A program made the position numbers and the translations under genes. A DNA stretch of 64,000 nt from Siphonodentalium dalli. Lineage: Eukaryota; Mollusca; Scaphopoda; Gadilida; Siphonodentaliidae. The DNA lies in the NCBI GenBank assembly GCA_032622095.1, contig CP136069.1:124052126-124116125 (forward strand), in the 5' to 3' direction. This document shows positions 1 to 56,812 of the stretch, piece by piece; position 1 is the first letter of the stretch, and every line of letters begins with the position of its first letter. The notes below the pieces were generated by a model. It was not told the origin of the DNA, ran no database searches, and saw only the letters and a program-made list of their open reading frames with translations.

Positions 1-1054
1 GCTCTGAGCACCCTTTATCCACTCCCAAATCAACACAAAGGCACGGCGGGGGTTAATCAAGTGATTATTTAATGAGCGTTTGTTTTTGACGAATCGCTAT
101 AAAGAGCGTCTGTTTACCATTCAACGTTATTAGCATCTGCAGAGAGATATACTGGAACATTGAGTGGTTTCCTATGCGGGGAGATTTATTGGATGCCATA
201 GTACTCTTACAACATCATTGTTATAGTATGTATGACACTTAGGTCAGGGCTTAGGGGGTAGTTATAGGCATAATGCTTCTCAGAAATCCCGGTTACAAAC
301 CAACACTCACAATTTCGTATTTACGCAAACGTATATGGGAACAAGTGCTTTCCTATTTTTAGAACGCAACACATGATACCAAACAAAATTACGTCGCGTT
401 GGTGATGGCGTTCACGACGGGATTAATTGACTGTCCGCGAGGATGGGGTTCGCGACGGGATTAACTTTGCGGGGACTATTGGCCATCTCGTAAGGGTGGA
501 CAACCTCTGTCAGGCGCTGCTCAATGGCCACGTGCAGGTTAAATAAAATCATACCTCTTCTGGGTCTGGGCGTGTATAGACATGAGCCTGTTGTGTTCCT
601 AAGAACGCGGAGCGTGTTGCGTTCACAAGAACGCGGATCGGGTAAGTTTTTCCGCCCTAGGTGTGCTCAAACTTCGTATATAAGTTTAAAAACACACGGG
701 GATCGTCGACGTCGCATTGTGTGAAACATTCTTATGTCTGTCGTTCCTAGGAACGGGGGAATTTTGAATCGGGTCAGTCTTAACCTTCAAACGGGTACCC
801 ACAAATTATGTATCGTGACAAATGATCAATTCAAGGTCAAATCGGGTAAAATATTGAAAACCCAATATCGTTCATAGGAAGGGGGGATTTCATCGGGTAA
901 ATTTTTCCGCCAGAAACAAAAAATAAAAAAATAAACATGTCATAAAATGTCATGTTTCGGAAAAAAATCAGCATTAAATTAATATTAAAAAATAAACATG
1001 TCATAAAATGTCATGTTTCGGACAAACGCCGCCGGTGGCGGGCTAACCTGCTAG
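1..1054 (+). mobile_element. Helitron-like non-autonomous element A1 (left end outside window)
   Basis: First member of the chain. The right end is GCCGCCGGTGGCGG (self-complementary hairpin) followed by GCTAACCTG and CTAG at 1051-1054, the layout expected of a Helitron 3' end (hairpin a few bases before CTRR). The interior carries phrases found in the other A copies: TATAAAGAGCGT, CGTTCCTAGGAAC and a TCAAGGTCA site at 831-839. Positions about 290-490 reappear inverted at about 21410-21570. No coding capacity is seen; the short open frame at 524-724 is made of repeat sequence. The 5' end is not in the window. Confidence 0.7.
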
Positions 1055-1078
1055 TCTACTATATAATTTGAGACTTCC

Positions 1079-1124
<46 letters not shown>

Positions 1125-1785
1125 ATATGTGTGGGTACTTCATGGAATCCAAAACGCGTGTACAGATTGAGCTCAAATTTCGTATGTAAGTGTAAAATCC
1201 CACCGACACGGCCGTGGTCGCGTTTTGGAGAAGCTCAGAGCACCGTTTCTCCAATCCCAAATCACCGCAATCGGCACTTCGGGGTTAATAGCGTTGGTAT
1301 ATAAAGATCGTTCGTTTTCCGCAGTGTCTATATAAAGAGCGTCGTTTTCGCTATCTACTTATCTGTATGACGGGAGTCTGTAGCTTGTCGCTCGAAATAT
1401 TATGCAGAGGCATTTCACGACGGGAAGCGTTTGTTTTCAATTCAATGCAATGTTATCGCTCGAGCGTTGTCTGTCGTTCCTAGGAAGGGGGGATTTCTAC
1501 GGGTAACTTTTTCCGCCAGAAACAACAAATTTAATTAAAACAGTTTAAAATTAACCAAATTTAAAAATAAAAAAACAATTCAGAAAAACAATATATTAAA
1601 TTTAAAAACATTAAATTCATATTAAAAAATAAAAAATAAAAATAAATAAAAACAAAATAATTTAAAAAATGTCATGTTTCTGACGAAATTTGGTACAAAT
1701 GCAGCACAAGTGTCTCGGAACCTGTTGCAATTGCTTTTTCGAATGGGATGGGACGAATGCCGCCAGTGGCGGGCTAACCTGCTAG
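1055..1785 (+). mobile_element. Helitron-like non-autonomous element A2
   Basis: Begins TCTACTATATAATTTGAG directly after the CTAG of A1 and ends with the hairpin CCGCCAGTGGCGG and CTAG at 1782-1785. The order is ACTTCCG, a (TA)n/(GT)n microsatellite (1079-1125), a block with TATAAAGAGCG, then an A/T-rich tail with ATGTCATGTTTCTGACG just before the 3' hairpin. A microsatellite near the 5' end and a 3' stem-loop are typical of HINE/DINE/MINE-type Helitron relatives. It is non-coding. Confidence 0.75.
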
Positions 1786-2867
1786 TACTATATTTTGAGA
1801 CTTCCGTATATATATATGTGTGTACTTTATAGAATCGAAAACGGATGCACCCATCAAGCTCAAATTTCGTATATAAGTGTAAAAACCCACGTGGATCGTC
1901 CACGTCGCATTTTGGAGAAGCTCAGAGCACCCGTTCTCCAATCACAGTCACAAAACGGCACTGCGGTGGTTAATCAAGTGACGTTGTATATGACGCGTCG
2001 CTATAAAAGAGCGTTTGTTTACAATTCAACGCAACGATATCGCTCGAAATTTAGCATCGAACAAATTTAATTTCTTTTATCAAAAATATAATTACGTGCT
2101 GGACTCTGTCATTTTAAGAATATGTAAGTATTACACACATACACACCAAGTCTGAGCGTAAAATTTTGAAAAATAAGAGTTTTATCGACATAAATCGATT
2201 TTAATGGGAAATCCAATGTTAAAATTTAGCATCGAAAAAATTTAATTTCTTCCATCTAAAACATAATTACGTGTTGGACTGAGTCATTTTAAGAATATAT
2301 AAGTATTACACGCAGTCACACGAAGTCTCAGCTTGAAATTTTGAAAAATAAGAGTTTTATCGACATAAATCGATTTGAATGCGAAATCATGTGTTAATAA
2401 ATTTTGGGGGCTCAGCTGTTCTGTGCAAAATGGTCAACTCGGGACGGGTCAACCGATTGAGCCCAAACTTGCTACCTATGGGTACATTTGTCCTGCAAAT
2501 GTCACGGACGGGTCAAATCGTGTCCCCGATGTGACATTGACCTTCAAACTGGTCAATTCAAGGTCAATTTGGGTAAAACTGGAGGATTTCTGTACTTTTT
2601 TCCTGGGAGTGTTTTGGACGGGTCAAAATTGGGTAAAACTGGCGGATTTCTGTACTTTTGTCCGGGGAGTGCTTTGGACGGGTAAAATCATGACCACGAC
2701 CTGACCTTGACCTACAAAATTGTCAATTCAATGTCAAATCGGGTAAAACTTGCTGATTTCGACGAAATTTGGTACAAATGCAGCACAAGTGTCTCGGAAC
2801 CTGTTGCAATTGCTTTTTCGAACAAAGCCATGAGACGAATGCCGCCAGTGGCGGGCTAACCTGCTAG
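1786..2867 (+). mobile_element. Helitron-like non-autonomous element A3
   Basis: Starts TACTATATTTTGAGACTTCC immediately after the preceding CTAG (the first base pair is TA rather than TC) and ends in the CCGCCAGTGGCGG hairpin and CTAG at 2864-2867. Its interior differs from A2. It holds two copies of a roughly 185-bp module (about 2045-2205 and 2225-2385, both with ATCGACATAAATCGATTT), then a block rich in TGGACGGGTCAAA and TCAAGGTCA (2558-2566) shared with the E subfamily. So it is a mosaic of subfamilies. Confidence 0.7.
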
Positions 2868-3882
2868 TCTCCTATATAGTTTGAGACTTCCGTATATATG
2901 TGTATATATATATATGTGTGTGTGGGTACTTGATAGAATCGAAAACGACTGGTCGAATCGAGCTCAAACTTCGTACATAAGGGTAAAAACCCACAGGGAT
3001 CGTCCGCGTCGCATTTTGGACAAGCTCAGAGCACCGCTTCTCTCTTCCAAACCATCAAAATCACCGCAAACGACACTTCGGGGGTTAAGGCATCAACGAT
3101 CTTTATATTGACCGTATTTGGAGTCGTTAACCGATAAACGCTCTTTATTTCCATCGACGTTGCTAAACGGTTAACCATGCGTTCGAAACTACGGACGCAA
3201 AACGCGAAATGCATTTATCTCGATTAAAAAGGCAGAATTAACGTGTTGTGTGATTCTTATGTCTGTCGTTCCTAGGAACGGGGGAATTTTTCAATCATAC
3301 CTCTTTTAGGGACGGGTACTGCGTGTTGTGTGAAAACAAAAAATGCGTGTTGTGTGTTGTGTGATTCTTATGTCTGTCGTTCCTAGGCACGGGGGAAATT
3401 TTCATCGGGTCACTTTTTCTGCCCGATGTACCTTAAATCATACCTCTTTTAGGGACGGGTACTGCGTGTTTAGTGATTCTTATGTTTTCTTCACCGTAAT
3501 CGTGTAAAATAAGGTCTAATCAGGTAAAATATTGAAAAACCAAAAATTCAATAAAAAAAATTTAAAAATCTAGTAAATTAAAAATGCACGGATAAAATAT
3601 TGAAAATTAAAAAATGAATTAAAAAATGAATTTAAAAAATTAAAAATTGTCATGTTTCTGAGTGTAATCGGGTAAAATATTGAAAAACTAAAAATTAAAT
3701 TCAAAAATTAATCCAAAAAATTAATTCAAAAATCCAGTAAATTAAAAATGCACAATTAACTCATGTTATAAAAAAAAATTAATATTATCTATTAACTCAT
3801 TGGAGAAAAAAAATGTAAATTAAAAAAATAAAAAATTGTCATGTTTCTGACGAACGCCACCAGTGGCGGGCTAACCTGCTTG
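2868..3882 (+). mobile_element. Helitron-like non-autonomous element A4
   Basis: Starts TCTCCTATATAGTTTGAG after CTAG and ends at the hairpin CCACCAGTGGCGG followed by CTTG (3879-3882), a one-base change from CTAG. The interior contains three copies of the GTCTGTCGTTCCTAGG phrase and a long A/T-rich 3' portion. Its CAACGTTGCTAAACGG/AAAAGGCAGAATTAACGTG segment (3160-3245) reappears inverted at about 46300-46390. It is non-coding. Confidence 0.7.
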
Positions 3883-4548
3883 TCTATATATATATTTTGA
3901 GACTTCCGTATATATATATGTGTGTGGGTACTTTATAGAATCGAAAACGACTGGTCGGATCGAGCTCAAACTTCGTCTATAAGGGTAAAAATGCCACGGG
4001 GATCGTCCACGTCGCATTTGGACAAGCTCTGGGCACTCATTCTCCACTCCCAATCAATAAAATCACCGCAAACACGGCGGGGGTTAATAGCGTTGATAGT
4101 TAAAGAGCGTTTCTATCCGCAGTGTAGTTGATAAAGAGCGTGTGTGTGTAATGTGATTCTTACGTCTGGGTCTGGGCGTGTGCGTTAGTATACAGGCATG
4201 AGCGTGTTGTGTGATTCTTACGTACTTAGGGCTTCCTAGGAATGCGGATCGGGTCAGTTTTTCCGCCCTAGGTGATCTTCACTGTGAAACGGGTACCATA
4301 TACGTGTGTGTCCTTTATAGACTCGAACTGATTGAGCTCAAACTTGCTCCCTACGGGAAGTGTCGTGGACAGGTTAAATTGTGACCCCGACCTGACATTG
4401 AAAATGATTAATTCAAGGTCAAACCGGGTAAAAAAAAAATGTAATTAAAAAATTAATTAAAAACATTTGAAATTAAAAAAAATATTTAAAAAAATTAAAA
4501 ATTGTCATGTTTCTGACGAACGCCGCCAGTGGCGGGCTAACCTGCTAG
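3883..4548 (+). mobile_element. Helitron-like non-autonomous element A5
   Basis: Starts TCTATATATATATTTTGAG at the CTTG of A4 and ends with the hairpin CCGCCAGTGGCGG and CTAG at 4545-4548. The shortest A-type unit of the chain (666 bp). It has the A-type 5' block, the TAAAGAGCG phrase twice, TCAAGGTCA at 4413-4421, and the A/T-rich 3' portion. Confidence 0.75.
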
Positions 4549-5062
4549 TCTCATATATATTTTGAAGACCTCTGTTTGTCTGTATGTTTGTATGTTTGTC
4601 TGTCTGTCTGTCATTGATACAAATCTACGATTCTCGACCGATCGGGACGAAACTTGGTACGTGTGTGTAGTTTGACCAGGCGGTGGACGTTGTCGTATTG
4701 GTGAGCCCGTGCGGCGCCCGCTTCGCGCATGCGCAGACGAGATATCGGAAACGGGTGGAGCTATCGACTTGAAATTTGTTACGTGAATGTAACTTGCCCC
4801 GGATACGAATTTTATCGGGTCGCCGAGCCCGTGCGACGCCAGCTTCGCGCATGCGCAGACGAGATCTCGGAAACGGGTGGAGCTATCGACTTGAAATTTG
4901 CTATGTGAATGTATCTTGCCCCGGATACGAATTTTATCGGGTCGCCGAGCCCGTGCGACGCCAACTTCGCGCATGCGCAGACCAGCTCTCGGAAACGGGT
5001 GGAGCTATCGACTTGAAATTTGCTTTTTGAATAGCCCGGACAACGTCGGGCTCATCGGCTAG
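4549..5062 (+). mobile_element. Helitron-like element D1 (122-bp repeat subfamily)
   Basis: Begins TCTCATATATATTTTGAAGA at the CTAG of A5 and ends AGCCCGGACAACGTCGGGCT (stem-loop) CATCGG CTAG at 5059-5062. After a (TGTC)n microsatellite (4569-4612) the body holds about 2.5 copies of a 122-bp tandem unit. The open frames on both strands here come from that GC-rich unit and are not genes. Confidence 0.8.
4700..5026 (+). repeat. 122-bp tandem repeat inside D1 (about 2.5 units)
   Basis: The phrase TCGGAAACGGGTGGAGCTAT recurs near 4744, 4866 and 4989, a spacing of about 122 bp. Each unit contains GCGCATGCGCAGAC and ATACGAATTTTATCGGG. Units differ by scattered substitutions. Confidence 0.85.
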
Positions 5063-5812
5063 TCTCATATATATTTTGAAGACCTCTGTTTGTCTGTCTG
5101 TATGTTTGTCTGTATGTCATTTATACAAATCTACGATTCTCGACCGATCGGGACGAAACTTGGTACGTGTGTGTAGTTTGACCAGGCGGTGTACGTTGTC
5201 GTATTGGCGAGCCCGTGTGGCGCCCGCTTCGCACATCCGCAGACGAGATATCGGAAACGGGTGGAGCTATCGACTTGAAATTTGCTATGTGAATGTATCT
5301 TGCCCCGTATACGAATTTTATCGGGTCGCCGAGCCCGTGCGACGCCAGCTTCGTGCATGCGCAGACGAGATCTCGGAAACGGGTAGAGCTATCGACTTGA
5401 AATTTGGTACGTGAATGTATCTTGCCCCGGATACGAATTTTATCGGGTCGCCGAGCCCGTGCGACGCCAGGTTCGCACATGCGCAGACGAGATCTCGGAA
5501 ACGGGTGGAGGTATCGACTTGAAATTTGGTATGTGAATGTATCTTGCCCCGGATACGAATTTTATCGGGTCGCCGAGCCCGTGCGACGCCAGCTTCGCGC
5601 ATGTGCAGACCAGATCTCGGAAACGGGTGGAGCTATCGACTTGAAATTTGGTATGTGAATGTATCTTGCCCCGGATACGAATTTTATCGGGTCGCCGAGC
5701 CCGTGCGACGCCAGCTTCGCGCATGTGCAGACCAGATCTCGGAAACGGGTGGAGCTATCGACTTGAAATTTGATTTTTGAATAGCCCGGACAACGTCGGG
5801 CTCATCGGCTAG
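5063..5812 (+). mobile_element. Helitron-like element D2 (expanded 122-bp array)
   Basis: Same 5' end (TCTCATATATATTTTGAAGA) and same 3' end (stem-loop, CATCGG, CTAG 5809-5812) as D1. It is 236 bp longer, which is close to two extra 122-bp units. It abuts D1 with no intervening base. Confidence 0.8.
5208..5772 (+). repeat. 122-bp tandem repeat inside D2 (about 4.5 units)
   Basis: TCGGAAACGGG recurs near 5250, 5372, 5494, 5616 and 5738, exactly 122 bp apart. The last three units are nearly identical to one another, which suggests recent expansion of the array. Confidence 0.85.
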
Positions 5813-6441
5813 TCTATTATATATTTTGGGAAATCTGTGTGTGTGTCTGTCTGTTCGCAAAGGACTCGAAAACGGCCGAGCCGATTTCGATGAAACTTGG
5901 TATGTGGGGATACTTTCGGCCGGGGAGTGGCATGGGCCTATGAATTTGCCCGTGCGACGTTACCTTGAAATCGGGTCATTTCAAGGTCAAACGCCCGAGT
6001 ATCACGGGATTTCGATGAAAATTAGTGTCTAGGGATACTTTCGTATGGGGAGTGTCGTAAGCCTATTCGTTTTCCCGTGCGACGTGACCTTGACCTTGAA
6101 ATCGGGTCAATTCAAGGTCAAATCGCGAATTTTGATGGGATTTCGACGAAATTTGATACGTGGGGTCACTTTTGTCCACTGAGTGTTTTGGACGGGTCAA
6201 ATCGTGACCCCGACCTGACCCTGACCTTCAAAATGATCAATTCGAGGTCAAATCGGGTAAAACCGGATGGATTTCGACGGGTACTTTTGTCGGGTACTTT
6301 TGTCCGGGCGGTGTTTTGGACGGGTCAAATCGTGACCCCACCTGACCTTGACCTTCAAAATGGACAATTCAAGGTCAAATCGAGCAATTCGCAGAACAGT
6401 AGAGGGGAAACAACCAGGACGAAGTCGGGTCCACCTGCTAG
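5813..6441 (+). mobile_element. Helitron-like element E1 (AAGGTCA-rich subfamily)
   Basis: Begins TCTATTATATATTTTGGGAA at the CTAG of D2 and ends GGACGAAGTCGGGTCC (weak stem-loop) ACCTG CTAG at 6438-6441. The body has GATGAAACTTGGTATGTGGG and at least seven AAGGTCA-type motifs, including TCAAGGTCA at 5981-5989 and 6112-6120. The same subfamily is found inverted at 17901-18593 and about 21840-22426. The 174-residue open frame through it (6077-6601) runs past the element end and has no recognisable domain. Confidence 0.75.
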
Positions 6442-8742: not shown

Positions 8743-9640
8743 ACCGCCCGGACCGCTCGAGACCGCCAGGGACAACCCGGGCGCCCACATGGGCACGTGT
8801 ACGCTATATCTCGATGTTATAAGGTAGCTCGCCCGTCTTCGGCCGGTATTATTAGCCCCGCAAATGCCGATATTGGCTAAGCGAGCCGGGAGAGCCCGGG
8901 TGTCTTCGTGAGGTTTCGGACAGTATAGTTTGATGATGCAATACCACCTGAGTGTGACATTCAAATATTGACTCGCCGATGTTATTAACCCATCAAAACA
9001 CGATAAAATGCCGTAGATCCCAGGAGAGGCCGGGTGTTTCCGTTAACATTTTGACAGTATAGTTTGATGGGTTTTTTTGGTAGTGGAATACTACGTGAGT
9101 GTGAGATTCAGCTACTATCATCCACGGTCGATGTTATTAACCCGCAAATGCCGATATTGGTTAAGAGAGCACGAGAAAGCCTAGTGGTAAACATATTTTT
9201 ATTTCCAAATCCAAACAAATAACATATACAGATGACACATATATATATACAAAATAGAAGAGGTATTGTCTTTGTTTGGTTTCAGACAATATATTTTGAT
9301 GGTGCGCGGTAGTGCAATATCACCTGAATTCCAAATATCGACTCGCTGACGCGTCCACGGCCGATGTTATTAACCCATCAAAATCCTGTAAAATACCGTT
9401 ATAGACTGAAGAACCCGAGAGAGCCCGACTGTCTCATTGAACAATTTGACAGTATAGTTTGATATTTTTTGGTAGTGGAATACTGCACGAGTAAGAATTC
9501 AACTATTGACACATTCGCGCATCCCACGGCCGGTGTTATTAGCCCATCAACACAGGTAAAGTACATGTACAAGTACATTGGACGACAGAGCCCGCGGTGT
9601 TTTCGTTGATATTTTGACAATATCTTGATTATACTAGTAA
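8743..9640 (-). repeat. Left inverted arm of the large element
   Basis: Made of alternating modules marked by TGTTATTAACCCATCAAAA (near 8980, 9364) and TTATTAACCCGCAAATGCCG-type sequence (near 8850, 9132), so subrepeats are about 170 bp in a 340-390-bp period. Shared marker phrases are GATATTGGCTAAG, ACAGTATAGTTTGATG and ACCTGAGTGTGACATTC. In reverse complement it matches 15563-16583. Confidence 0.75.
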
Positions 9641-12562: not shown

Positions 12563-13471
12563 TTATTTATTATAGTACAGCTTGTTTATTTGAGTTATCA
12601 GTTTGCAGATTCCACGCATTACCTTCGTGTTTGGGTTGTTAAATAGTTGCGCTAATTTCCAGTTACTCGGGTGTGTGTAGTAATATTTTGCTATATAGTT
12701 TCGCCTTAAATCGTTCAAGGCATCGCATTCAAGAAGTGTATGTAGTTCATTAACTGGCGCGTCTTTGTCGCACAATTTGCAGTTTTTTTCATCATCGGGT
12801 AAGTTCATCCAGTCTCCTGTTTCTATTGGTAAGCGATGATTTCGAGTACGGAATTTAAAAATTAAAATAGAATCGTTTGTATGCAATTTCGAAAAATATA
12901 CCTCTTCTCGGTAGATTGTTTTGATATATTGATACGTAATATACTTGTCAGAAGAATACAATGTTTGCCACCAACTTTGAATATAAAGATCTTGAAGTTG
13001 CTGTTTTGTAGCCTCGCAGAATAGTTTCAGGGGATTGGGAGCGTGTGTAGCCCATGTGCCACTGAGCCCAAGTTCATTTAATAAAGAGTAAATATAATTG
13101 ATCCATTTGGGTTTGTTATTAACATATCTGTCCCTTTGGTTGTATCTACTACACAGTGTCCAGTATAGATTATACGCGATCTTGTTTCTACTTCCGCTCA
13201 CTAAGTGACCCCAATAATTCAACATCTGATGTTTGATTTTCATCGTGACTGGGAATATCCCAAGTTCATCGTATATCATAGCATTTGGCGTGGACCGTTT
13301 TGCTTTGAGTATATATTTAAGGAACCATAATTCCAATCGCTGTATAATATTGTTGTTCCTAAAACCCCAAACTTCCGCTCCATAAGTCAATATCGGGACA
13401 ATCGATATTTGATAGAGTTCGAGAACGCATTTTAAAGGGAGATTCATGGTTTGCATCTTGCTTGTTGACAT
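12563..13471 (-). pseudogene. LINE-A C-terminal region (thumb and CCHC motif)
   Basis: 302 residues downstream of the RT core. ILTYGAEVWGF near the start is a conserved post-RT block of this LINE group, also seen at about 24110 and 38815. Near the end, C231-X2-C234-X9-H244-X4-C249 forms a CCHC-type knuckle. The frame overlaps the RT frame at 13444-13471, so one small indel separates the two. In the intact element these would be one polyprotein. Confidence 0.8.
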
Positions 13472-14895
13472 CGTATTTTGTTTTCTTCGACAAAAGAGCC
13501 GTTACTACTAAATGTCGTTCCAATGTACTTATACGTTTTCGTTACTTCAATCTGCTCACCATTCAGCATAAAATGCACATCTTTTTTCCTTTTGTTTCCA
13601 AATATAACTACATTACTTTTTGCATTATTGATTTCCAATTTCCAGATACGGCAATATTCGGCATAATCATTTAACATGCATTGTAGTCCTTCCGCAGAAT
13701 ACGATAAAAGAACGGTATCGTCAGCATACAGGAGGCAGAACAATTTCAAGTAATGAAGGCTCGAACCACAAGGCACGTCTGCTAGAACTATACCGCAATT
13801 TTCGTTTTTGCGTAAATACATTTCTAAGTCGTTTGTGTATATGGAAAAAAGGAGAGGGGAAAGATTAACACCCTGTCGGACGCCCGTTTCGCATGGAAAT
13901 AATGCTGATATAACACCATTATGTGCAACACAAGACTTTATGTTCTTATACATATTTATTATCACGTTTAGAATCGTACCTTCTATTCCAATATGCAATC
14001 GTTTTCTCCACAGTCCTACCCGCGAGACCCGATCGAAAGCCTTCGATAAATCGATGAAAGCACAATATAAGCTACGCTTGCGGGCTTTAACAAGGTCAAT
14101 AAGACTATTTAATGAGAATATATGATCCAGTGTCGAATAATGTTTTCTAAATCCAGCTTGATTTTCTTCTAATAGTTTGTTGGTTTCTAGGAAGCTTTGG
14201 ATACGTTCGCTCAAGATAGATGTGAACACCTTTGATATACAACTTACTAGAGTGATTGGTCGATAGTTATTTGGCTTTTTCGGGTCATTTGATTTAAATA
14301 TCGGCTGAATAATACCAATTCCCCAGTCGTCTGGTACAATACCGCTTTTTAGAATCAGGTTAAAATATGTCTGAAGATGAGTCGTTAGTTTTCCAGAAGC
14401 CATTTTAATGTATTCATTTTTAATTTCATCTATTCCACTGGCCTTACCGAATTTCAAGCTGCGTAGCGCGTTATCGATCTCTTGGAGTTCAATGTCACGG
14501 TCCAGATGAGACATATACCATGTGAACTGGAGATATTCATCATAACTGTGATCTACGTTTGTCGAATTTGTTTCTGCAAAATGATCATAAAATTGGTTAA
14601 TTGTGGGCGATTCCACAGGTTGAGTATTTGCGCGCTTCTTTCCAACTAATTTCCAGTAGTCGCGAACGTTCGTGCGTTTCAAATTTAAAATATTGTCCTG
14701 CAATGTCATATTATAATTTGCTCTGCACCTTTTTATTTTATTTTTATATGCATTTCGTATGTTGGTCAGATCTATTCTGTTCGCTTCTGTGCGGCTACGC
14801 TGATAACGTTTCAGTGTGGTGCGATATTGTTTTCTGATATTATTACAATCTTTCGAGAACCACGGTTTCGTATTCGATTTGTTTTTCGGTTTGAT
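13444..14895 (-). pseudogene. LINE-A reverse transcriptase
   Basis: Reverse transcriptase for target-primed integration of the element's RNA. Counting from the Met at 14709, NNYRPITLVSC (147-157), AFIDLSKAFD (217-226), GVRQGVNLSPLLFSIYTNDL (276-295) and the catalytic YADD (328-331) are all present. The frame stays open upstream to about 14895 and includes the linker WFSKDCNNIRKQY. It is followed by the C-terminal frame after a frameshift at 13444-13471 and preceded by the endonuclease fragment after another frameshift near 14896. The catalytic residues are intact, but the frame is broken at both ends. Confidence 0.85.
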
Positions 14896-15562
14896 TTATT
14901 TCCTTGGCCGGGTACCCAACGCGGAAATTGCGGCATTTCGATAAAAAAAATTCAGGTTGCAATTGGCATCTGTTATATCGTTCTCAGTTATAGTAGCCTT
15001 GACTTTCAGTGTCTCAAGGTGTTCGGCAAACTGAGTTACGCGCGATTCATCTATGTTTTGTACAAAGTGTATTTCCTTGTCACTGCTCCAGCTATTGATG
15101 GGAAATACACGATTTGTAGACATGCTATGAGATACGTTGGGAACATATATATTGTTCTCTAGATTTATATGATGATAGTTTTTTGGCCCATCTCCCATTA
15201 AGAGTTCAAAATACAGAGCACACTGGTTAGCGTATTTTGGTCTCTCACTTGAAAATTTACAATATGTGTCATCATCGTGTAATTAAATAGCAGATAATCA
15301 ACTATGCTAGCATTCTTGCATGTCAGACGACCAATCCCTTTGTCGAAGCCTAATCTGCCATTAGCAATCAAAATCTCGGCTTGTCTACATAAATCAATTA
15401 ATTTATAGCCAAAATTGTTCGTTCGTCTATCTAGAGATGCACGCGGTGGTATATCTGAAACATCCAAAACAGAGTCATCATTTATGTCTCCCGGAGAGAA
15501 GTCACGAAGCTTGGCAGTTCGTGCGTTGAAATCCCCGAGAAGTAAGATGTTACAACCATGTC
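14896..15562 (-). pseudogene. LINE-A endonuclease fragment
   Basis: C-terminal half of an APE-like endonuclease in two frames (15562-15198 and 15198-14896). LLLGDFNARTAKL holds the GDFN catalytic block, with CKNASIVDYLLFN downstream. The N-terminal catalytic Asn and Glu blocks are missing through 5' truncation, so it cannot be active. Confidence 0.8.
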
Positions 15563-16583
15563 CCTCTCGGACTCTTTTTGTCTATATGGTATTTTATCGG
15601 ATTTTGAGGGGTTGATAACATAGGCCGTGGACGCGTCAGCGGGTCGATATTTGGATTTCACACTCAGGTGGTATTACACTAACACGCATTATCAAACTAT
15701 ACTGTCCGAAACCACATGAAGACACCGGGCTTCCGGTCTCTCTTAGCCAATATCGGCATTTGAGGGGTTAATAACACCGACAGGAGAAGTCAGAGCGAGT
15801 AAAATTTTCTAGTATGTCCTCAGGTGGTATGTCGCTACCTTCTAACTTCGAGATATACGGTTCCATGGCCACGCCCGGGCCTCCCGTGTGTCCCGGCCTC
15901 TCCCGGGCACTTTGTTTCTATATGGTATTTCACCGGATTTTGAGTGGTTAGTAACATTGGCTGTGGACGGGTCAGCGAGTTTATATCTGGATGTCACACT
16001 CAGATTGTATTGCAATACCGCGCATCATCAAAATATACTGTCCGAAACCACACGAAGATACACGGGCTCCCCCGGGCTCCCCGGGCCCCCGGGCTCTCTT
16101 AGCCAACAGCGGTATTTGCGGAATTAATAATACCGTCCGGAGATGAACGATCGAGTAAATTTTTTATGTTGTCATCAGGTAGTATGTCTCTCCCTTATGA
16201 CGTCGATATATAGTGTCCTCGGACCCATGGGGGAGCCCGGGCTCTCCCAAGCGGTCCCGGTCTCTCCTGGACTCTTTTTGTCTATACGGTATTTAATCTG
16301 ATATTGAGGGGTTAATAACATCGTCACACTCAGGTGGTATTGCACTACCGCGCATCATCAAAATATACTGTCCAAAACCACACGAAGACACCCGGGCTCC
16401 CCGGGCTCGCTTAGCCAATATCGAAATTTGCGGGGTTAATAACACCGGTCGGCGACGAGCGAGCGAGTAAACTTGTCTAGGTGGGCACCATAGGTAGTAT
16501 GTCGCTACCTTATAGTGTCGAGATATAGCTACCCATGGGGGCGCCCGGGTGTTCTCTGACGGTCTCGGGCGGTCCCGGGCGGT
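15563..16583 (+). repeat. Right inverted arm of the large element
   Basis: Reverse complement of the 8743-9640 arm. Three copies of a CTTTTTGTCTATAYGGTATTT-like phrase (15572, 15907, 16272) define a period of about 335-365 bp; GCGGGGTTAATAACACCG and CATCATCAAAATATACTGTC recur in each period. A short detached part of the same arm, including GGGCGGTCCCGGCCTCTCC, lies left of LINE-A (about 12044-12075). Confidence 0.75.
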
Positions 16584-17900: not shown

Positions 17901-18593
17901 CTAGAAGGTGACCCGACTTCGTCCGGGCTTTGACCTTGAATTGACCATTTTGAAGGTCAAGGTCAGGTGGGGTCAAACACCAACACCCCAAAAATGGTGG
18001 AAATCGGCCCAGCGGATACCGGGAAATCGTATATAAACGCGCCTCATATACACACGCTCATTAATTATCAAGTTTCAACGTAAAGATAAATTACCATCGG
18101 TGCCCGAGATATCGCCAAGACGTCTGAAACAGTCAAATGCATCGGCCGGTTAAGCGTTAACGTGATCTAACGTTATGACCTCTAACGACGTCATAGAAGT
18201 TACGCATTGTTTTTATCCTGATGGAAGATAGTACCACTTCTTCTTGATAATTGAGGCAGATAACTAAAACGGATACATGCGCATTATATATCGTTGGAAA
18301 GAGGAAACACGAAAGATTCTCACAGTGTCATTATTATGACTGGCATTTTATTATTCGCGCTGTTTCGAATCGATTTGTAAGCACCGAACTCAAATGAAAG
18401 TCCCGTAACACAGCGCAAAATCATATTTGACCTCGGCACGTGAAAAGTTGACCTCGGATCTGAATATCAATAGGCCTATGTCACCCCCGGCCGAAAATAC
18501 CCCCACATACCAAGTTTCATCGAAATCGGGTCGGCCGTTTTCGAGTTCATCGCGAACACACAGACACACAGATCTGCCAAAATATATAATAGA
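17901..18593 (-). mobile_element. Helitron-like element E2, inverted relative to the first chain
   Basis: On the minus strand it begins TCTATTATATATTTTGGCAG (18593) and ends GACGAAGTCGGGTCACCTT CTAG (17904-17901), followed by T. It carries the same GATGAAACTTGGTATGTGGG block as E1. The left part contains several AAGGTCA motifs. Its 5' end abuts the CTAG of the next element. Confidence 0.75.
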
Positions 18594-18726
18594 CTAGCAG
18601 GTTAGCCCGCCACTGGCGTGGTTGGTCAGAAACATGACATTTTAAAAATTATTTTGTTTGTATTTAATTTTGTTTTTATTTTTTAATATTAATTTAATGT
18701 TTTTTAAATTTAATATATTTTGTAAT

Positions 18727-19727
18727 ACGACCCTGCCTGACTATGGTTAAAAGCCATGTCCTGATTGGCCAGTGGCCCGAGTTACCATGGCTATCTCGTT
18801 CCAGTTTTGTGGTACAATTCTACTTTTTCCAATTGTACCACGAAAAAAATCGGTTTATTCAGATCGCCGCACGCGACTTTTCCCGTCTTTTCTAACTCCG
18901 CGCAAACGGGGCATCAACGGAGTACACCCGCACCCGTAACTCTTTGAATTTTGCTACATCTTGACAATCTTGCGAATTTTCTAGCGATTTGTCGCTTGAA
19001 ACCAGTTTGGTTGCCAATGAATATGGTCCAAATGATGTTATGTTATATTGATATATGTTACGACCAAAGAAAGTTACTTAATAAGTATATTAAATGACAA
19101 AATAAATCCATGGGGCCGGGCTGTGCATTCGTCGATTCGAATCTCGATCATATTCGATATTTCGGAATCAAGTTGAAAATGAAAGCGTGTGTTCACCAGT
19201 ACAGAAGGGGAATAAGATTAGTTTAGTAAACTAGAACACTTAGATCGCTTAGATGATCATATTCATGTCCCAACAACGTTCAAAACAGAAATGACGGCAA
19301 TCGTATTTCATGTACAATTTAAATGAAACGCACGGGCGCCGCTGAAAACACATCGTTTTTTAGCCAATCACAACGATTATTTCTAGAAGAGGTGCCTCGA
19401 AAAGTCAACGGAGGAATTTCATAACAAGACAAGACATTACCAGAGTACTCCATGCAATGAAATCGAGTACGCCCAATACGAATTACACCACGAAATGTTT
19501 TCTCACCTGAGACCGAAAAAGCGCAGTATTTCGTTGACTATTCAGTCGAATTGTGACCATAAACTTTCAGTCGTATTACAAAAGAAATAAATACACGGTG
19601 TATCGGTGTGTATGGTCAAGTTGTACCACAAAAAACTGATTGTAGGACTCCGCTACGCGTCGTCCTACAATCAGTTTTTTGTGGTACAACTTGACCATAC
19701 ACACCTCTACACCGTGTATTTATTTCT
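18727..19727. mobile_element. ~1-kb insertion in A6, TAAT on both sides
   Basis: TAAT at 18723-18726 and 19728-19731 flank the segment, which is absent from the other A copies. It has no coding frame. Two hairpins are visible: GTGGTACAATT/AATTGTACCAC (18810-18842) and the long one at its right end. Both contain the phrase TTGTACCAC, so the hairpins may be element termini. The family is unknown. Confidence 0.5.
19583..19727. repeat. Near-perfect 66-bp hairpin with 13-base loop
   Basis: Arms 19583-19648 and 19662-19727 are complementary over 66 bp, apart from a few bases around the GTGTATC/GTGTAGA position. The loop is TCCGCTACGCGTC. Such low divergence points to a recent origin. Confidence 0.9.
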
Positions 19728-20433
19728 TAATTGTTTCTGAATTTTTTAATATTTATTAAATTTTAATTGTTTTAATTAAATTTGTTGTTTCTGGCGGAAA
19801 AATTTACCCGATGAAATCCCCCCTTCCTAGGAACGACAGACAACGCATTCTTTTTTTTCTTTTTTTTTAACCTGCCCGTACCCGTCCTAATGTCGTGAAA
19901 TATCTCTGCATAATATTTCGAGTGATAACATTGCATTGAATTGAAAACAAACACTTCCCGTCGTGAAATCTCTCTACGATAACATTGTATTGAATTGAAA
20001 ACAAACGCTTCCCGTCGGGAAATCTCTCTGCATAATATTTCGAGTCTGCCGTACGTACCCGTCGTAATGTCGTGAAATCTCTCTGCATAATATTTCGAGC
20101 GATAACATTGCATTGAATTGAAAACAAACGCTTCCCGTCGTGAAATCTCCGTCATACAGATAAGTAGATAGCGAAAACGACGCTCTTTATACAGACACTG
20201 CGGAAAACGAACGCTCTTTATATATCAACGCTATTAACCCCGAAGTGCCGATTGCGGTGATTTTGATGATTGGGAAGGGAGAAACGGTGCTCTGAGCTTC
20301 TCCAAAACGCGATCACGGCGGTGTCCATGGGATTTTACACTTATATACGAAATTTGAGCTCGATCCGACCAGGCTTTTTCGATTCTATAAAGTACACACA
20401 TATATATATACGGAAGTCTCAAAATATATAGTA

Positions 20434-20890
20434 CTAGCAGGTTAGCCCGCCACCGGCGGCTTGTCCGAAACATGACATTTTTTTATATATTTTTTTTTTA
20501 TTTTTAGCTCCACGCGTTTCAATAAGACAAATTTGTACCCGGTAGCTCCACCCGTTTCCGAGATCAGGTCTTCGCATGCGCGAAGCTGGCGTCGCACGGG
20601 CTCGGCGACCCGATAAAATTTGTACCCGGCGCAAGATACATTCACATAGCAAATTTCAAGTCGATAGCTCCACCCGTTTCCGAGATCTCGTCTGCGCATG
20701 CGCTGCACGGGCGTCGCACGGGCTCGCCAATACGACAACGACCACCGCCTGGTCAAACTACACACACGTACCAAGTTCCGTCCCGATCGGTCGAGAATCG
20801 TAGATTTGTATGAAGTACAACACACACACAAACATAAATATATAAGAGAGATATGTAAATTAGATAGATTGTATCAAAATATATAGGAGA
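20434..20890 (-). mobile_element. Chimeric Helitron-like element: A-type 3' end, D-type body
   Basis: The 3' end is the A hairpin (GCCCGCCACCGGCGGC) with CTAG at 20434-20437, but the interior (20519-20800) carries D-type 122-bp repeat units (GCGCATGCG, ACGGGTGGAGCTATC on the minus strand). The 5' end TCTCCTATATATTTTGATAC is at 20890. It combines two subfamilies in one element. Confidence 0.65.
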
Positions 20891-21036
20891 TATATGTAAA
20901 TGATCTACACACCATTACTGGTGTTTGTCAAAGTTTAGGGGGGTATATCAATACTCATTCACGATCATATCATTGATGTCCGGAGGGTGTGGGCTATCTC
21001 TCGAATACACGGAGTTCTCAAAATATATAGGATAGA

Positions 21037-22426
21037 CTAGCAGGTTAGCCCGCCACTGGCGGCATTCGTCCCATGGCTTTGGTCGATCCATTAATTTTAG
21101 TTTTTCAATGTAACCCCGTACAGGACCGGGCTACTCAAAAACCAAATTTCAAGTCGATAGCTCCACCCGTTTCCGAGATCTGGTCTGCGCATGCGCGAAT
21201 CTGGCGTCGCACGGGCTCGGCGATCCGATAAAATTCGTATCCGGGGCAAGATACATGCACATACCAAATTTCAAGTCGATAGCTCCACCCGTTTCCGATA
21301 TCTCGTCTGCGCATGCGCTGCACGGGTGTCGCACGGGCTCGCCAATACGACAGCGACGACCACCTGGTCAAACTACACTCACGTACCAAGTTTCGCCCCG
21401 ATCGGTCGAGGTGTTGGTTATTGATGCAAAAGACGAAATTGTGAGTGTTGGTCAATAGTCCCCGCCGTGAACCTCATCGTCGCAAAGAGCGGACAGTCAA
21501 TTAACCCCGTTGTGAACCTCAATCACCAACGCGACGTAAACATGTGTTGCGTTCTAAAAATAGGAAAGCACTTTCTCTCTGCATAATTCTGCAGATGCTA
21601 ATAACGTTGCTCCCCGTAGGTAGCAATATCGTTGTTGTTGATATTTACGGCTTGGGGGCTATTTTCTTATTTAGCAAGTTTGAGCTCAATCGGTTAGAGT
21701 CTATAAAGGACACACTCATATATATGACACTTCCCGTAGGTAGCAAGTTTGAGCTCAATCGGCATTCCCTGGAATTTCCCGTAGATTGGCAGATTCCAGT
21801 AGCTTTATAACGGTATATCTGGGGAGAAATCTGATGCTATATTCGTGATTATCTGGGATGATTTCGGTATATACCGTCAGGTCGGGGTCACGATTTGACC
21901 CGTCCAAAACACTCACTTGACAAAAGTACCCACATGTATCAAATTTCGTCGAAATCCCATCAAAATTGGCGATTTGACCTTGAATTGACCCGATTTCAAG
22001 GTCACGTCGCACGGGCAAATGAATATGCTTATGAGACTCCCCATACGAATGTACCCCGCATACCAAGTTTCATTAAATCCCGTAATATTTGGGCATTTAA
22101 CCTTGAAATGACCCGATTTCAAGGTCAATGTCACGTCGCACGGACAAATTAATAGGTTTATGCCACTCCCCGGCCGAAGATACCCACACATACCAAGTTT
22201 CATTGAAATCCCGTGATATTCGGGCGTTTGACCTTGAAATTACCCGATTTCAAGGTCAAGGTCACGTCGCACAGGTAAATTAATAGGCCCATGCCACCCC
22301 CCCCCCCCCGGCCGAAAATACCCCCACATACCAAGTTTCATCGAAATCGGCTGGGCCGTTTTCGAGTTCATCGCGAACACACAGACACACAGACACACAA
22401 ACAGATCTTCCAAAATATATAATAGA
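21037..22426 (-). mobile_element. Composite Helitron-like element (A, D, A and E parts)
   Basis: The 3' end has the A hairpin with CTAG at 21037-21040. Next come D-type 122-bp units (21145-21405), a stretch matching 290-490 inverted (21410-21570), then an AAGGTCA-rich E-type body whose 5' end TCTATTATATATTTTGGAAG lies at 22426. No internal CTAG joint was found, so it may be one rearranged element or fused deletions. Just to its left, 21012-21036 is a solitary 5' end (TCTATCCTATATATTTTGAG). Confidence 0.6.
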
Positions 22427-32520: not shown

Positions 32521-33105
32521 TGCTCGAACGTGCGAGCCCTTACGTTCGAACGTGCGAGCCATTACGTTCGAACTGCGAGCTCTTGCGTTCGAACGTGCGA
32601 GCCATTACGTTCGAACGTGCTAGCTCTTACGTTCGAACGTGTGAGCCCTTGCGTTCGAACAGCGAGCCCTTACATTCGAACGTGCGAGCTCTTGCGTTCG
32701 AACGTGCGAGCCCTTACGGTCGAACGTGCGAGCCTTTGCGTTCTAACGTGCGAACCGTTGCGTTCGAACGTGCGAACTCTTACGTTCCCACGTGCGAGTA
32801 TTTACGTTCCCACGTGGGAACTTTTACACACTCTTTCAACATGGACGCGAGGCATGCTGCTAATAGGGACCTAAGATCTCGCACGTTCGAACGCAAGGGC
32901 TCGCACGTTCGAACGCAAGGGCTCGCACGTTCGAACGCAAGGGCTCGCACGTTTGAACGCAAGAGCTCGCACGTTCGAACGTAAGAGCTCGCACGTTCGA
33001 ACACAAGGGCTCGCACGTTCGAACCCAAGGGCTCGCACGTTCGAACGCAAGGGCTCGCACGTTCGAACGCATGGGCTCGCATGTTCGAACGTAAGAACTC
33101 TTGGG
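32521..33105. repeat. Strand-switching array of a 22-bp repeat
   Basis: The left block (32521-32824) holds about 14 units of CGTTCGAACGTGCGAGCCCTTA or close variants. After a spacer of about 55 bp (32825-32876), about 10 units run in reverse complement (CTCGCACGTTCGAACGCAAGGG) to 33105. Each unit contains the palindrome ACGTTCGAACGT or a close form. The last left unit contains the 16-bp perfect palindrome GTTCCCACGTGGGAAC. Because 22 is not a multiple of three, three units return to frame, so all frames stay open. The peptide repeats this creates (for example ERASPYVRTCEPLRSN) are products of the DNA repeat, not evidence of a gene. Confidence 0.95.
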
Positions 33106-38027: not shown

Positions 38028-39722
38028 TCACGTGTCACACAGTGCCTGTTTAATAAATATACATACCCTCTTCATAATTTCTAGATTATCAATAGACAGA
38101 AGACCAATAAATTTATCAAGGTTGGGAAGCTCCCAATAATACGATGGTATGAATTTCTCTCTGATAACCTGGAATTTTTTGCATACGATAATAAAATGAT
38201 ATTCATCACCGAGACCCTCCCCACATGCGGAGCAGAGTCTTTGTTCTCGTGACACGGCTTTCCATCTACCACTCTCAATGGCCAAACGATGGTTTGTTGT
38301 TCTAATCTTTGTCATGTATTCTGCCAGATATGTAGGCAATTTTAGCAAATAGCCACTCATTTTAAGGTCGGACTTTATTTCTTTGTAAAGGATACCCTTT
38401 GACGAAGAAAGAATATTTTGGCGCCATTCTAATTCAAATTGACTTGTCATGTCCATTTTAAATTGTCTGATGGTCCCCTTAGACAAGGGTGAGTTAGCTG
38501 AGCATGAACTTTTGGCATTTACCTCTTCGAAAATCACCTGTATAAATTCAAACCATTTCAAATAAGTACTGGGAGACTCAGATAACACTCGCGACAATTT
38601 ATATAGTTTCTTCACTAGATTTGAACCATATTCAGAAACGGTTCTTGACCAAAATGCCAGTGCACGGCATTTGATCTCAATTCCAAGTGGGTGTCGTCCT
38701 GTTTCTCCGTACACCATGTAATTCGGTGTACTGGACTTCATACCAAGTAGAATTTTGCTAAATTTTAAGTGGACGAATTCGATGTCCTTGGTGGGCTCAT
38801 AACACCAAACCTCACTACCATATAGCAATATGGGGGCTATTTTGTAATCAAAGAGAGTTAACATCATATCTAAAGGGAGATTTAGTGATCTCACCTTATT
38901 AAATAAAGCATACATTGCTTTCAGGGCAAGGTTCTTGTTTTCTTTAATAGATCTACAGAAACGACCATTGTAGAAAAATTTAACGCCTAAATAGGTGAAT
39001 TCCTTCGTGATTTCTAGTGTATGTTCTTTAAATATAAATATCGGAAGATTTTTTTGCATTTTTTTGCAAAAAATTACAACTTTTGTTTTCTTTGTATTAA
39101 CTTCGAGTTTCCATGCATCTGAATAGTCAGCAAATGCTTGGAGTGCACGATGCATACTGCTTTCGTTATCAGCCATCAATACAGTGTCATCAGCATATAA
39201 CATACATAATAATTTAACATATATTCCAATATTCTCTTGAAAAAGATCACTCAAGTATGTCAAACCGTCTATAGCACAGTCAGATAAAAAGTCGCTAATA
39301 TCATCAATATAGAGGGAAAATAGGAGAGGGGACATAAGTTCACCTTGAAATAAACCTACGTTGCTCGAAAAGAAATCTGACAAACCCTCGTTGCTTTTTA
39401 CACATGACTTTATCTTGCCATACATACTTCTGACGACATTAAACAGTTTACCATTGATATTTCGTTCCAATAATTTAACCCAGAGTCCATCTCTCCAGAC
39501 GCTATCAAAAGCCTTTCGGAAATCAATGAAAGTACAGTAAAGTTTTTTCCCACTAGATAAATACATATCGATGATAGTCTGTAGGACATATATGTTATCA
39601 ATAGTAGAGTGTTTACGCCGGAAACCCGTTTGATACTCGTTGATTAAATGCTCTTCATCGGAAAAGTTAGTTAATCTTTTGTTCATGATAGAAGTGAACA
39701 TCTTAGCTATACAGCTTAACAA
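38028..39722 (-). pseudogene. LINE-B reverse transcriptase and C-terminal domain
   Basis: 564 residues. RT blocks: GFRRKHSTIDNIY (33-45), CTFIDFRKAFDSVW (63-76), GLFQGELMSPLLFSLYIDD (123-141) and catalytic YADD (176-179). The post-RT block ILLYGSEVW follows. The C-terminal knuckle is C497-X2-C500-X8-H509-X4-C514. The frame remains open about 60 bases upstream of the Met (PIYKKSGDRDNP ... YRGITLLSC), so the real start lies in the upstream frame. No stop interrupts this half. It performs target-primed reverse transcription in the intact element. Confidence 0.9.
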
Positions 39723-39724
39723 TG

Positions 39725-41880: not shown

Positions 41881-42145
41881 TAATTCACAGAAGCTGCGAT
41901 GTCAACCACTAGTGACGATAATAATAACAACAACAACAACAACAACAACAACATCGTAGCAGCTAATAGAATGTTGACAGTGTTGCCATTCTTTTTTGAC
42001 TTGACCATTCAATCCAGTTGACAGTGTTCTGATAGTTTTGAAGCACATACTTGTACATCTACACGAGAGGATATACTGTATGCACCAGAGTAATTCACAA
42101 GAACTTTGATGTAAACAACAACAACAACAACAACAACAACCACAC
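41860..42145 (-). repeat. Duplicated LINE-B leader monomers with (GTT)n
   Basis: AATAATTCACAGAAGCTGCGATGT (41879) and AGTAATTCACAAGAACTTTGATGT (42089) begin two related monomers about 210 bp apart, each followed by a CAA trinucleotide tract (about 41930-41952 and 42114-42140; GTT on the LINE sense strand). CAGTTGACAGTGTT and TGTTGACAGTGTT are also repeated in between. Monomeric 5' leaders are known from several LINE families. Confidence 0.7.
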
Positions 42146-42571: not shown

Positions 42572-43008
42572 TCTCATATATATTTTGAAGACCTCTGTTT
42601 TGTCTGTATGTTTGTTTGTCTGTATGTCTGTCATTTATACAAATTTACGATTCTCGACCGATCGGGACGAAACTTGGTACGTGTGTGTAGTTTGACCAGG
42701 CGGTCGACGTTGTCGTATTGGCGAGCCCGTGTGGCGCCCGCTTCGCGCATGCACAGACGAAATCTCGGAAACGGGTGGAGCTATCGACTTGAAATTTGGT
42801 ATGTGAATGTATCTTGCCCCGGATACGAATTTTATCGGGTCGCCGAGCCCGTTCGACGCCAGCTTCGCACATGCGCAGACCAGAGCCCGTGCGAGCCCGT
42901 GCGACGCCAGCTTCGCGCATGCGCAGACCAGATCTCGGAAACGGGTAGAGCTATCGACTTGAAATTTGGTTTTTGAATAGCCCGGACAACGTCGGGCTCA
43001 TCGGCTAG
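42572..43008 (+). mobile_element. Helitron-like element D3, clean A/T insertion
   Basis: Starts TCTCATATATATTTTGAAGA, has the (TGTC)n tract and about 1.5-2 of the 122-bp units (42700-42950), and ends AGCCCGGACAACGTCGGGCT CATCGG CTAG (43005-43008). Flanks are ...AACAACCA and TATATATAGGG, so it lies precisely between A and T with no target duplication, as expected for Helitrons. A local GAGCCCGTGCGAGCCCGTGC stutter (42884-42904) marks a small internal duplication. Confidence 0.85.
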
Positions 43009-56370: not shown

Positions 56371-56812
56371 CTAGCTGATGTGCCCGACTTAGTCGGGGCT
56401 ATTTAGGGATTTCTTTGCCAGAAACATGCCTATATGAGCGTATATGAACGAGGTCAAGGTCAATGTCAAGGACACGGTCGCACGGGGACCCGTTCATATT
56501 GTGCTCGGGATCAAGTAGGCCTACATACCAAATTTGAGTCGGATTTGTCGAGGTCCAGAAACATGCCTATATGAGCGTATTTGAGCTAGGTCAAGGTCAA
56601 GATCAAGGACACGATCGCACGTGAAATTGGACCCGCGCATATTGTTGCCGGGTTCAAAGTAGGCCTACATACTAAATTTGAATCGGATCGGTCCAGCAGT
56701 TTTCGATTCTATAACACACATACATACACACATACATACATACACACATACATATATAGATAAAATACATACATACATACAGACAGACAGAAGTTCCAAA
56801 ATATAAAATAGA
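56371..56812 (-). mobile_element. Helitron-like element F, clean A/T insertion
   Basis: Minus strand: starts TCTATTTTATATTTTGGAAC (56812), then a long TGTATG/TGTC microsatellite (56790-56715), two related body modules with GAACCCGGCAAC/ATCCCGAGCAC and AAGGTCA sites, and ends GCCCCGACTAAGTCGGGCA CATCAG CTAG (56374-56371). Minus-strand flanks are ...TTAA and TTCGAA, i.e. A before and T after. A fourth subfamily with the same architecture as A, D and E. Confidence 0.85.

Follow-up and report, generated by a model that had tools for sequence, protein, structure and literature searches.

Helitrons lying in tandem or next to each other are on record in maize, bats, rice, Drosophila and fungi, to judge from the excerpts of the published literature on which the comparisons in this text draw. 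In Myotis lucifugus, Pritham and Feschotte reportedly described tandem Helibats with perfect head-to-tail junctions in 2007 and interpreted them as tandem repeats. Here we analyze a stretch of 64,000 nucleotides from the scaphopod mollusc Siphonodentalium dalli (assembly GCA_032622095.1, contig CP136069.1, positions 124,052,126 to 124,116,125, hereafter "the window"), which opens with a chain of Helitron-like elements. The junctions between these elements are also perfect and head to tail, but the neighbours usually belong to different subfamilies. The genome as a whole (2.23 Gb, 9 contigs) served for comparison.

Du et al. 2008 (PMC2267711) described two adjacent head-to-tail Helitrons at the maize r1 locus. 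As in S. dalli, these are different elements joined at CTAG|TC with a G/T junction (the bar marks a joint or a point of insertion), and the authors offered two models, canonical A|T insertion at the 5' end of the resident copy and insertion at G|T at its 3' end, leaving the order of arrival open. The maize case is one pair, whereas S. dalli provides thousands of joints, along with cut 5' ends that mark direction. The FoHeli elements of Fusarium are described together with a three-copy tandem in Metarhizium (PMC5148889). FoHeli composites, which have several 5' termini and one 3' terminus, resemble the CTGCCAA|TCTA composites reported below, but they have Helitron2-like termini and are single cases, and no genome-wide count was found in the excerpt of that paper. 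Helraiser (PMC4778049, PMC5876387) shares with the S. dalli elements TC and CTAG ends, an A|T target and an AT-rich 3' side of the target; in vitro, single-stranded DNA is cut at the 5' terminus and, on the other strand, at an internal AT, and double-stranded DNA is not cleaved (PMC4778049). A preference for resident elements is not reported in the excerpts of the two Helraiser papers, whereas such a preference is seen here. Helentrons and DINE-1 elements (PMC4067079) are likewise rolling-circle transposons with non-autonomous copies, some of them with internal tandem repeats, but they insert at TT, in contrast to the A|T insertion and CTAG ends found here.

Head-to-tail Helitrons and both insertion models are already published; the scale of the S. 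dalli chains and the footprints that mark direction seem to be new. Neither a genome-wide preference for resident 5' ends nor a direction-giving footprint of split ends was found in the literature searched, which left subscription journals mostly outside, and this negative is weak evidence. From the comparison of sequences we conclude, with a probability of about 0.77, that the chains grow stepwise at their 5' side, by canonical A|T insertion that is directed preferentially to the 5' end of a resident copy.

Joints in the window and across the genome

Seven head-to-tail joints can be read in the first chain of the window, at 1054, 1785, 2867, 3882 (CTTG), 4548, 5062 and 5812. All were placed at these coordinates by an analysis of the letters alone (the original prediction), and the types of the units by 3' end, five A, two D and one E, also agree with it. 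The 3' end at 6441 is the outer end of the chain, and the DNA after it is without an element start. A chain of eight units starting at base 1 had been proposed, but inspection of 10 kb upstream (locus L009) raises the count to nine; the first of the proposed units begins outside the window, and the extra upstream unit is preceded by host sequence ending A|TCTA|TCTATT. The joints had been ascribed an exact CTAG|T(C)T form, but at 1785 CTAG is followed by TACTATATTTTG, which lacks the TC start. Matches in the window to TATATTTTG number 21 against 2.24 expected by chance, and those to GGCTAACCTGCTAG with up to three mismatches number 15 against 1.94. GC-rich palindromes can be seen where the hairpins lie, but the fold energies predicted for them are no better than those of shuffled sequences (z of -0.29, -1.62, +0.56 and -0.43) and add nothing to what the palindromes themselves display.

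The 3' end of subfamily A, GGCGGGCTAACCTGCTAG, occurs in 10907 exact copies genome-wide, and its backward control in none. At least 6678 of these ends (61%) are joined, in that TATAWTTTGRRA, the 5' core of another element, lies 2-28 bases past CTAGT (control, 0); this figure is a lower bound since the core must be intact. The right flanks were also read in an unselected sample, the first 60 of 100 listed A-type 3' ends on contig C1. T directly follows CTAG in all 60; 44 of the ends are joints, 27 of them with a TC start and 17 without, and 16 are not joints. Twelve of the 60, every one a joint, come from a single 42-kb cluster, and the remainder contain 32 joints in 48. Of the 16 non-joint ends only one lies within 200 bases of an element core (at 50), and therefore the adjacency is exact and is not a by-product of regional clustering. 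On both counts joints are far commoner than random adjacency, which was the check on frequency that the original prediction had set. Claims about frequency rest on the genome-wide counts of 3' ends and on the 60-end sample: loci L010-L028 were picked by matches to a query holding two joints, which biases the frequency of joints in them. Since thousands of joints are spread over nine large contigs, they are unlikely to stem from local misassembly.

Insertion sites and split 5' ends

Intact 5' ends of four types that lie outside joints were collected from 332,788 bases. A precedes 35 of the 37, G one and T one, and 17 of the 37 come after TCTA. A resident copy reads host-A|TC...CTAG|T, and its 5' boundary is itself an A|T dinucleotide. 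Since canonical insertion at this boundary gives A|TC...CTAG|TC...CTAG|T, with the new copy leftmost, the G|T joint loses its force as an argument for a target at the 3' end, for which it had been used.

Direction can be read from the joints that lack a TC start. Of the 17 such joints in the sample, 13 read CTAG|TAC..., which is the right half of a 5' end that was cut at its next A|T (TCTA|TACTATAT). The longer form of the 5' end, TCTATACTATATATTTTG, has an A|T after TCTA, and many joints read CTAG|TACTATATATTTTG rather than CTAG|TC. Entry of a copy at TCTA|TACTATAT would leave TCTA upstream of the newcomer and TACTATAT downstream of it, and later arrivals between the two halves would preserve that order. 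Genome-wide, TACTATATATTTTGAGACTTC occurs 7660 times, in 1766 cases immediately after CTAG. The 67 occurrences of TACTATATATTTTGAGA in the bases examined are preceded by TCTA (41), CTAG (20) or other strings (6); five of the last six are TC-type starts or variants of them, and one (L104) has an A before it, inside a TCTA run that is degenerate. None of the 67 clearly represents a free A|TAC copy, and TAC starts therefore look like cut ends rather than the terminus of a subfamily of their own, which was the alternative considered and rejected.

In most cases the left half of the cut end is found where 5' insertion would leave it. For 11 split joints scored in the 10-kb loci and the window, an extra TCTA lies upstream in seven and downstream in none. 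The upstream bias has a p of 0.005 under within-chain shuffling, and split joints and TCTA are associated when scored by chain (Fisher p of 0.001). In this revised scoring L018 5143 and L021 5308 were dropped, the 3' end upstream of each being damaged, and L018 7185 was added by hand; the alternative scoring gives 7 of 12 upstream and a p of 0.004. Examples are L009 with the window, L015 5002-5636, L017, L020, L022, L024 and the minus-strand chain of the window, whose left flank, A|TCTA|TCTATT, is the left half of a split 5' end. Further stretches were taken upstream of chains, mostly chains in which split joints had already been seen. The extra TCTA is present at L091, L092, L095, L099, L101, L102, L104 and L109; the chain runs past the stretch in L089, L090, L105 and L106, four loci (L093, L096, L103, L108) are undecided, and three (L094, L097, L098) are uninformative. 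These footprints put the insertions at the resident's 5' end. The idea that resident copies are preferred targets is upheld, but the 3' CTAG end, which the original prediction had put forward as a possible target, is not supported in that role.

The preference exceeds what the target motif predicts. Of 40 right flanks, four (element body or odd ends) were set aside ahead of the motif count, as were two duplicates, leaving 34 distinct flanks outside joints, which consist of T and then a stretch made up largely of A and T. ATATA or TATAT occurs within the first 14 bases in 29 of the 34, compared with 248 of 3052 background A|T sites from two window stretches free of these elements. Two of the flanks kept (L015 3197 and L016 4177) later proved to be insertions into element bodies, and both lie in (TA)n runs. 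The 5' ends of elements share the AT-rich character, but when scored with a position table derived from the flanks, the exact boundary proves a moderate match only. Its likelihood ratio is about 0.1 to 33 depending on subfamily, compared with 68 for the site four bases in (the +4 site) and a sum of 819 over the A|T sites of an average unit; ranked against A|T sites of the host, the boundary falls anywhere from the top 1.6% to the top 27%, again by subfamily, and the +4 site in the top 1%. If the boundary is given a ratio of 10 and the +4 site one of 68, about a tenth of the insertions into elements are expected at the 5' end from the motif alone, and 0.7% of insertions overall if 100,000 elements are assumed. 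In the 60-end sample 44 insertions are at 5' ends, and comparison with a library of 93 units detected none in element bodies. The resident 5' end is picked more often than local composition predicts.

Two further patterns were seen around the ends. Near-identical 3' flanks occur at distant sites (the right flanks of L041 and L043, and those of L039 and L040), and these are either segmental duplicates or insertions into a repeat family starting TTTATATATAAAAGAG. A second 5' end is present inside the element body, always at the same point (GGAATCTGCCAA|TCTA..), at L010 910 (-), L016 2379, L098 262 (-) and L100 1588; such composites with two 5' ends may have multiplied.

Helitron class and the origin of the chains

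The chained elements are canonical Helitrons, mostly non-autonomous relatives, because they have the expected ends and insertion site and because a RepHel unit whose 5' end is of the same kind lies inside a chain. The 5' TC terminus, a canonical Helitron1 feature, is found at the 5' ends outside joints and at the exact joints, the split ends being without it. CTAG terminates the 10907 A-type ends and follows palindromes in A and D; the E unit of the window has a damaged hairpin. That copies insert between A and T is evident from the bases that flank both ends. Helitron_like_N (PF14214) has at least 151 matches in the genome, several of them in open frames of more than 1600 codons, and none in 14 control genomes. 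At L026 6725-10000 an open frame of at least 1092 codons matches Helitron_like_N at 2.5e-55 and contains the start of a PIF1 match, which is below Pfam's cut-off and is cut by the end of the locus. The stretch LPHAHILTW in this frame resembles the HUH motif. The L026 unit begins at a joint, CTAG|TCTATCTATACTATATATTTTG, no 3' end was seen for it, and its bases 3-195 are 86% identical to window positions 1096-1288. A 42-kb cluster on C1 (13715580-13757769, minus strand) holds 19 listed A-type 3' ends and a Helitron_like_N match at C1:13743912 (open frame 1614), and appears to be a very long chain, or several, with an autonomous copy among the units. No target-site duplication was visible by eye at the single copies 42572-43008 and 56371-56812, without an empty-site comparison. 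Assignment to the Helentrons was rejected, given the A|T insertion and the CTAG ends, a judgement made on insertion site and ends.

If the chains grow at the 5' side, mostly non-autonomous copies would insert by the ordinary A|T rule, favouring the 5' ends of residents. The boundary, a host A and the first T of the element, would be rebuilt as an A|T target by every insertion, so that growth would proceed stepwise and the rightmost unit would be the founder. The RepHel transposase may bind and nick the 5' terminus of a resident as in the first step of transposition, and the nick at that A|T, or at the next A|T four bases in, could accept the incoming copy. Local block duplication lengthens some chains: it is a real process in this genome, since units 2 and 5 of L020 are 99.9% identical, and distances of 1301-1302 and of 1118 bases between joints recur near C1 49.03 Mb.

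The same joints could arise if new copies entered the resident's 3' end, between CTAG and the host T, so that chains grew at the 3' side through a G|T target. The exact joint would be identical, and the polymorphism of one maize pair has the form expected from such growth (PMC2267711). However, 5' ends outside joints follow G in one case and A in nearly all, and 3'-end insertion makes neither CTAG|TAC joints nor upstream TCTA halves, while 17 of the 44 unselected joints are without a TC start; we consider it decidedly improbable. Rolling-circle copying past the 3' end could instead yield multimers (concatemers) that integrate as a block, and in bats and plants both head-to-tail junctions and tandem arrays have been taken as support for rolling-circle transposition (PMC5876387). 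Neighbours of the same type are indeed in excess in S. dalli (18 of 67 adjacent pairs, against a shuffled mean of 11.0, sd 2.95), and one adjacent pair, at L012, is 99.6% identical. Multimers would consist of near-identical neighbours, yet 49 of the 67 pairs differ in 5' type, and apart from the L012 pair the alignable same-type neighbours (9 of 10) are no closer than the highest identity between different loci. Among a total of 2007 comparisons of neighbour pairs between loci, both halves align in 32, the best of them at 93.3% and 94.3%. Multimers alone produce no split ends, and this origin is the one to which we would give the least credence. The mixture of subfamilies had already been held to defeat repeated copying of one circle, and that argument survives; end-to-end joining during rolling-circle copying, which had been suggested in its place, is disfavoured by the same neighbour identities and by the lack of a closely recurring pair in the loci examined. 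Tandem duplication as the source of all chains was rejected on the neighbour identities and pair comparisons as well.

Circles might also fuse before they integrate. Active Helitron circles whose CTAG-TC junctions are precise have been described (PMC4778049, PMC5876387), and fusion is compatible with split ends and A|T targets. Several copies of a fused circle might then be expected, but no two-unit combination recurs as a close copy among the 67 neighbour pairs in the loci examined, and fusion appears a poor prospect, on a par with entry at the 3' end. Finally, an AT-rich 5' end may simply be a good target, chains arising from ordinary target choice without recognition of the element. A TATATA-like stretch is common to right flanks outside joints and to element 5' ends, and the +4 site is among the best A|T sites available. 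Against this, the exact boundary has the wide spread of ranks given above, about ten sites per unit in the element bodies equal the TCTACTATATAATTTG-type boundary and are rarely hit, and the share expected with the assumed number of elements, at most 0.7%, contrasts with the 61% observed. We regard ordinary target choice as unlikely, though less so than the other three alternatives.

Several observations weigh against stepwise growth at the 5' side. Exact CTAG|TC joints alone give no direction, and maize lines that carry only the left Helitron of the pair (Du et al., PMC2267711) at face value favour 3' growth unless there was excision. Two of the 37 5' ends outside joints do not follow A, and at L018 a 5' end comes after GTAG, six bases past a damaged 3' end, and was scored as a joint. 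Element bodies are also hit: in the biased loci, six right flanks begin inside them, compared with 80 joints (82 scored, minus two whose 3' ends are damaged). Because the 5' boundary does not stand out as a match to the target motif, the cause of the preference is something we infer. The bracketing of insertions by TCTA is also incomplete: four of the 11 split joints have no visible left half, one of the four being in a locus cut at its left edge; the chain of the window itself has two split joints and one TCTA; L099 has two TCTA for three split joints; and at L100 and L107 the extra TCTA is absent although the left flank was reached. Conversely, L019 has a TCTA run without a recognised split joint (its next joint reads CTAG|TTTGAG), TCTA is in apparent excess at L095, and at L026 5204 it is part of the element's own start. 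TCTA runs can also be inherited or slip, and bracket counting is therefore imperfect.

Features of the window and significance of the chains

The elements of the window are listed in Table 1. The D units of the first chain contain a 122-bp minisatellite (4703-5772) whose copy number is unequal between the two neighbours.

Table 1. Helitron units and copies in the 64,000-nucleotide window
Feature	Position	Strand	Remarks
Unit A, 3' part	1..1054	+	5' start TACTATATATTTTG lies 128 bases before the window and abuts the CTTCTAG of another element
Unit A	1055..1785	+	5' TCTACTATATAATTTG; 3' hairpin and CTAG; joined at both ends
Unit A, split 5' end	1786..2867	+	TACTATATTTTG without TC, after CTAG
Unit A	2868..3882	+	5' TCTCCTATATAGTTTG; 3' CTTG
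Unit A	3883..4548	+	5' TCTATATATATATTTTG; 3' CTAG
Unit D	4549..5062	+	5' TCTCATATATATTTTG; internal 122-bp repeats; 3' CTAG
Unit D	5063..5812	+	more 122-bp repeats than the neighbouring D unit
Unit E	5813..6441	+	5' TCTATTATATATTTTG; 3' CTAG, then T; would be the founder of the chain under 5' growth
Second chain, four units	17901..22426	-	joints at 21037, 20434 (split, CTAG|TACTATATATTTTG) and 18594
Single D copy	42572..43008	+	A|TCTCAT...CTAG|T
Single copy, further subfamily	56371..56812	-	A|TCTATTT...CAGCTAG|T

Other repeats share the window with the Helitrons. Frames of non-LTR retrotransposons, both with a reverse transcriptase and the second also with an endonuclease domain, occupy 12563-15581 and 38028-41884 on the minus strand. 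An open frame of 454 codons at 51788-53152 (+) appears to the eye to be a retrotransposon remnant and has no Pfam match. A 22-bp repeat forms two close arrays of opposite orientation at 32524-33095, and dispersed repeats of a GGACAGTATAGTTTGATGATGC-like unit at 8924-9453 and 15701-16367 seem to have no relation to the Helitron ends.

The idea of rolling-circle multimers has drawn support from head-to-tail Helitrons; in S. dalli such Helitrons are probably better read as serial canonical insertions. The split-end footprints provide direction without polymorphism data, and the presence of more than 6600 joints and of open RepHel frames in one genome makes an old ambiguity testable. The footprint test is applicable to maize, rice and bats.

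The chains also raise the prospect of a self-targeting transposon, in which the site where the transposase starts, the 5' terminus of a resident copy, doubles as the preferred site of integration and one nick serves both for leaving and for landing. We judge the odds of this to be even. If it is true, each insertion would restore its own target, and the family would not disperse but would accumulate at its own 5' ends in mixed, open-ended arrays. A preference of this kind for its own ends would provide a path by which dispersed elements become satellite-like arrays, and a means of containing the harm done to the host.

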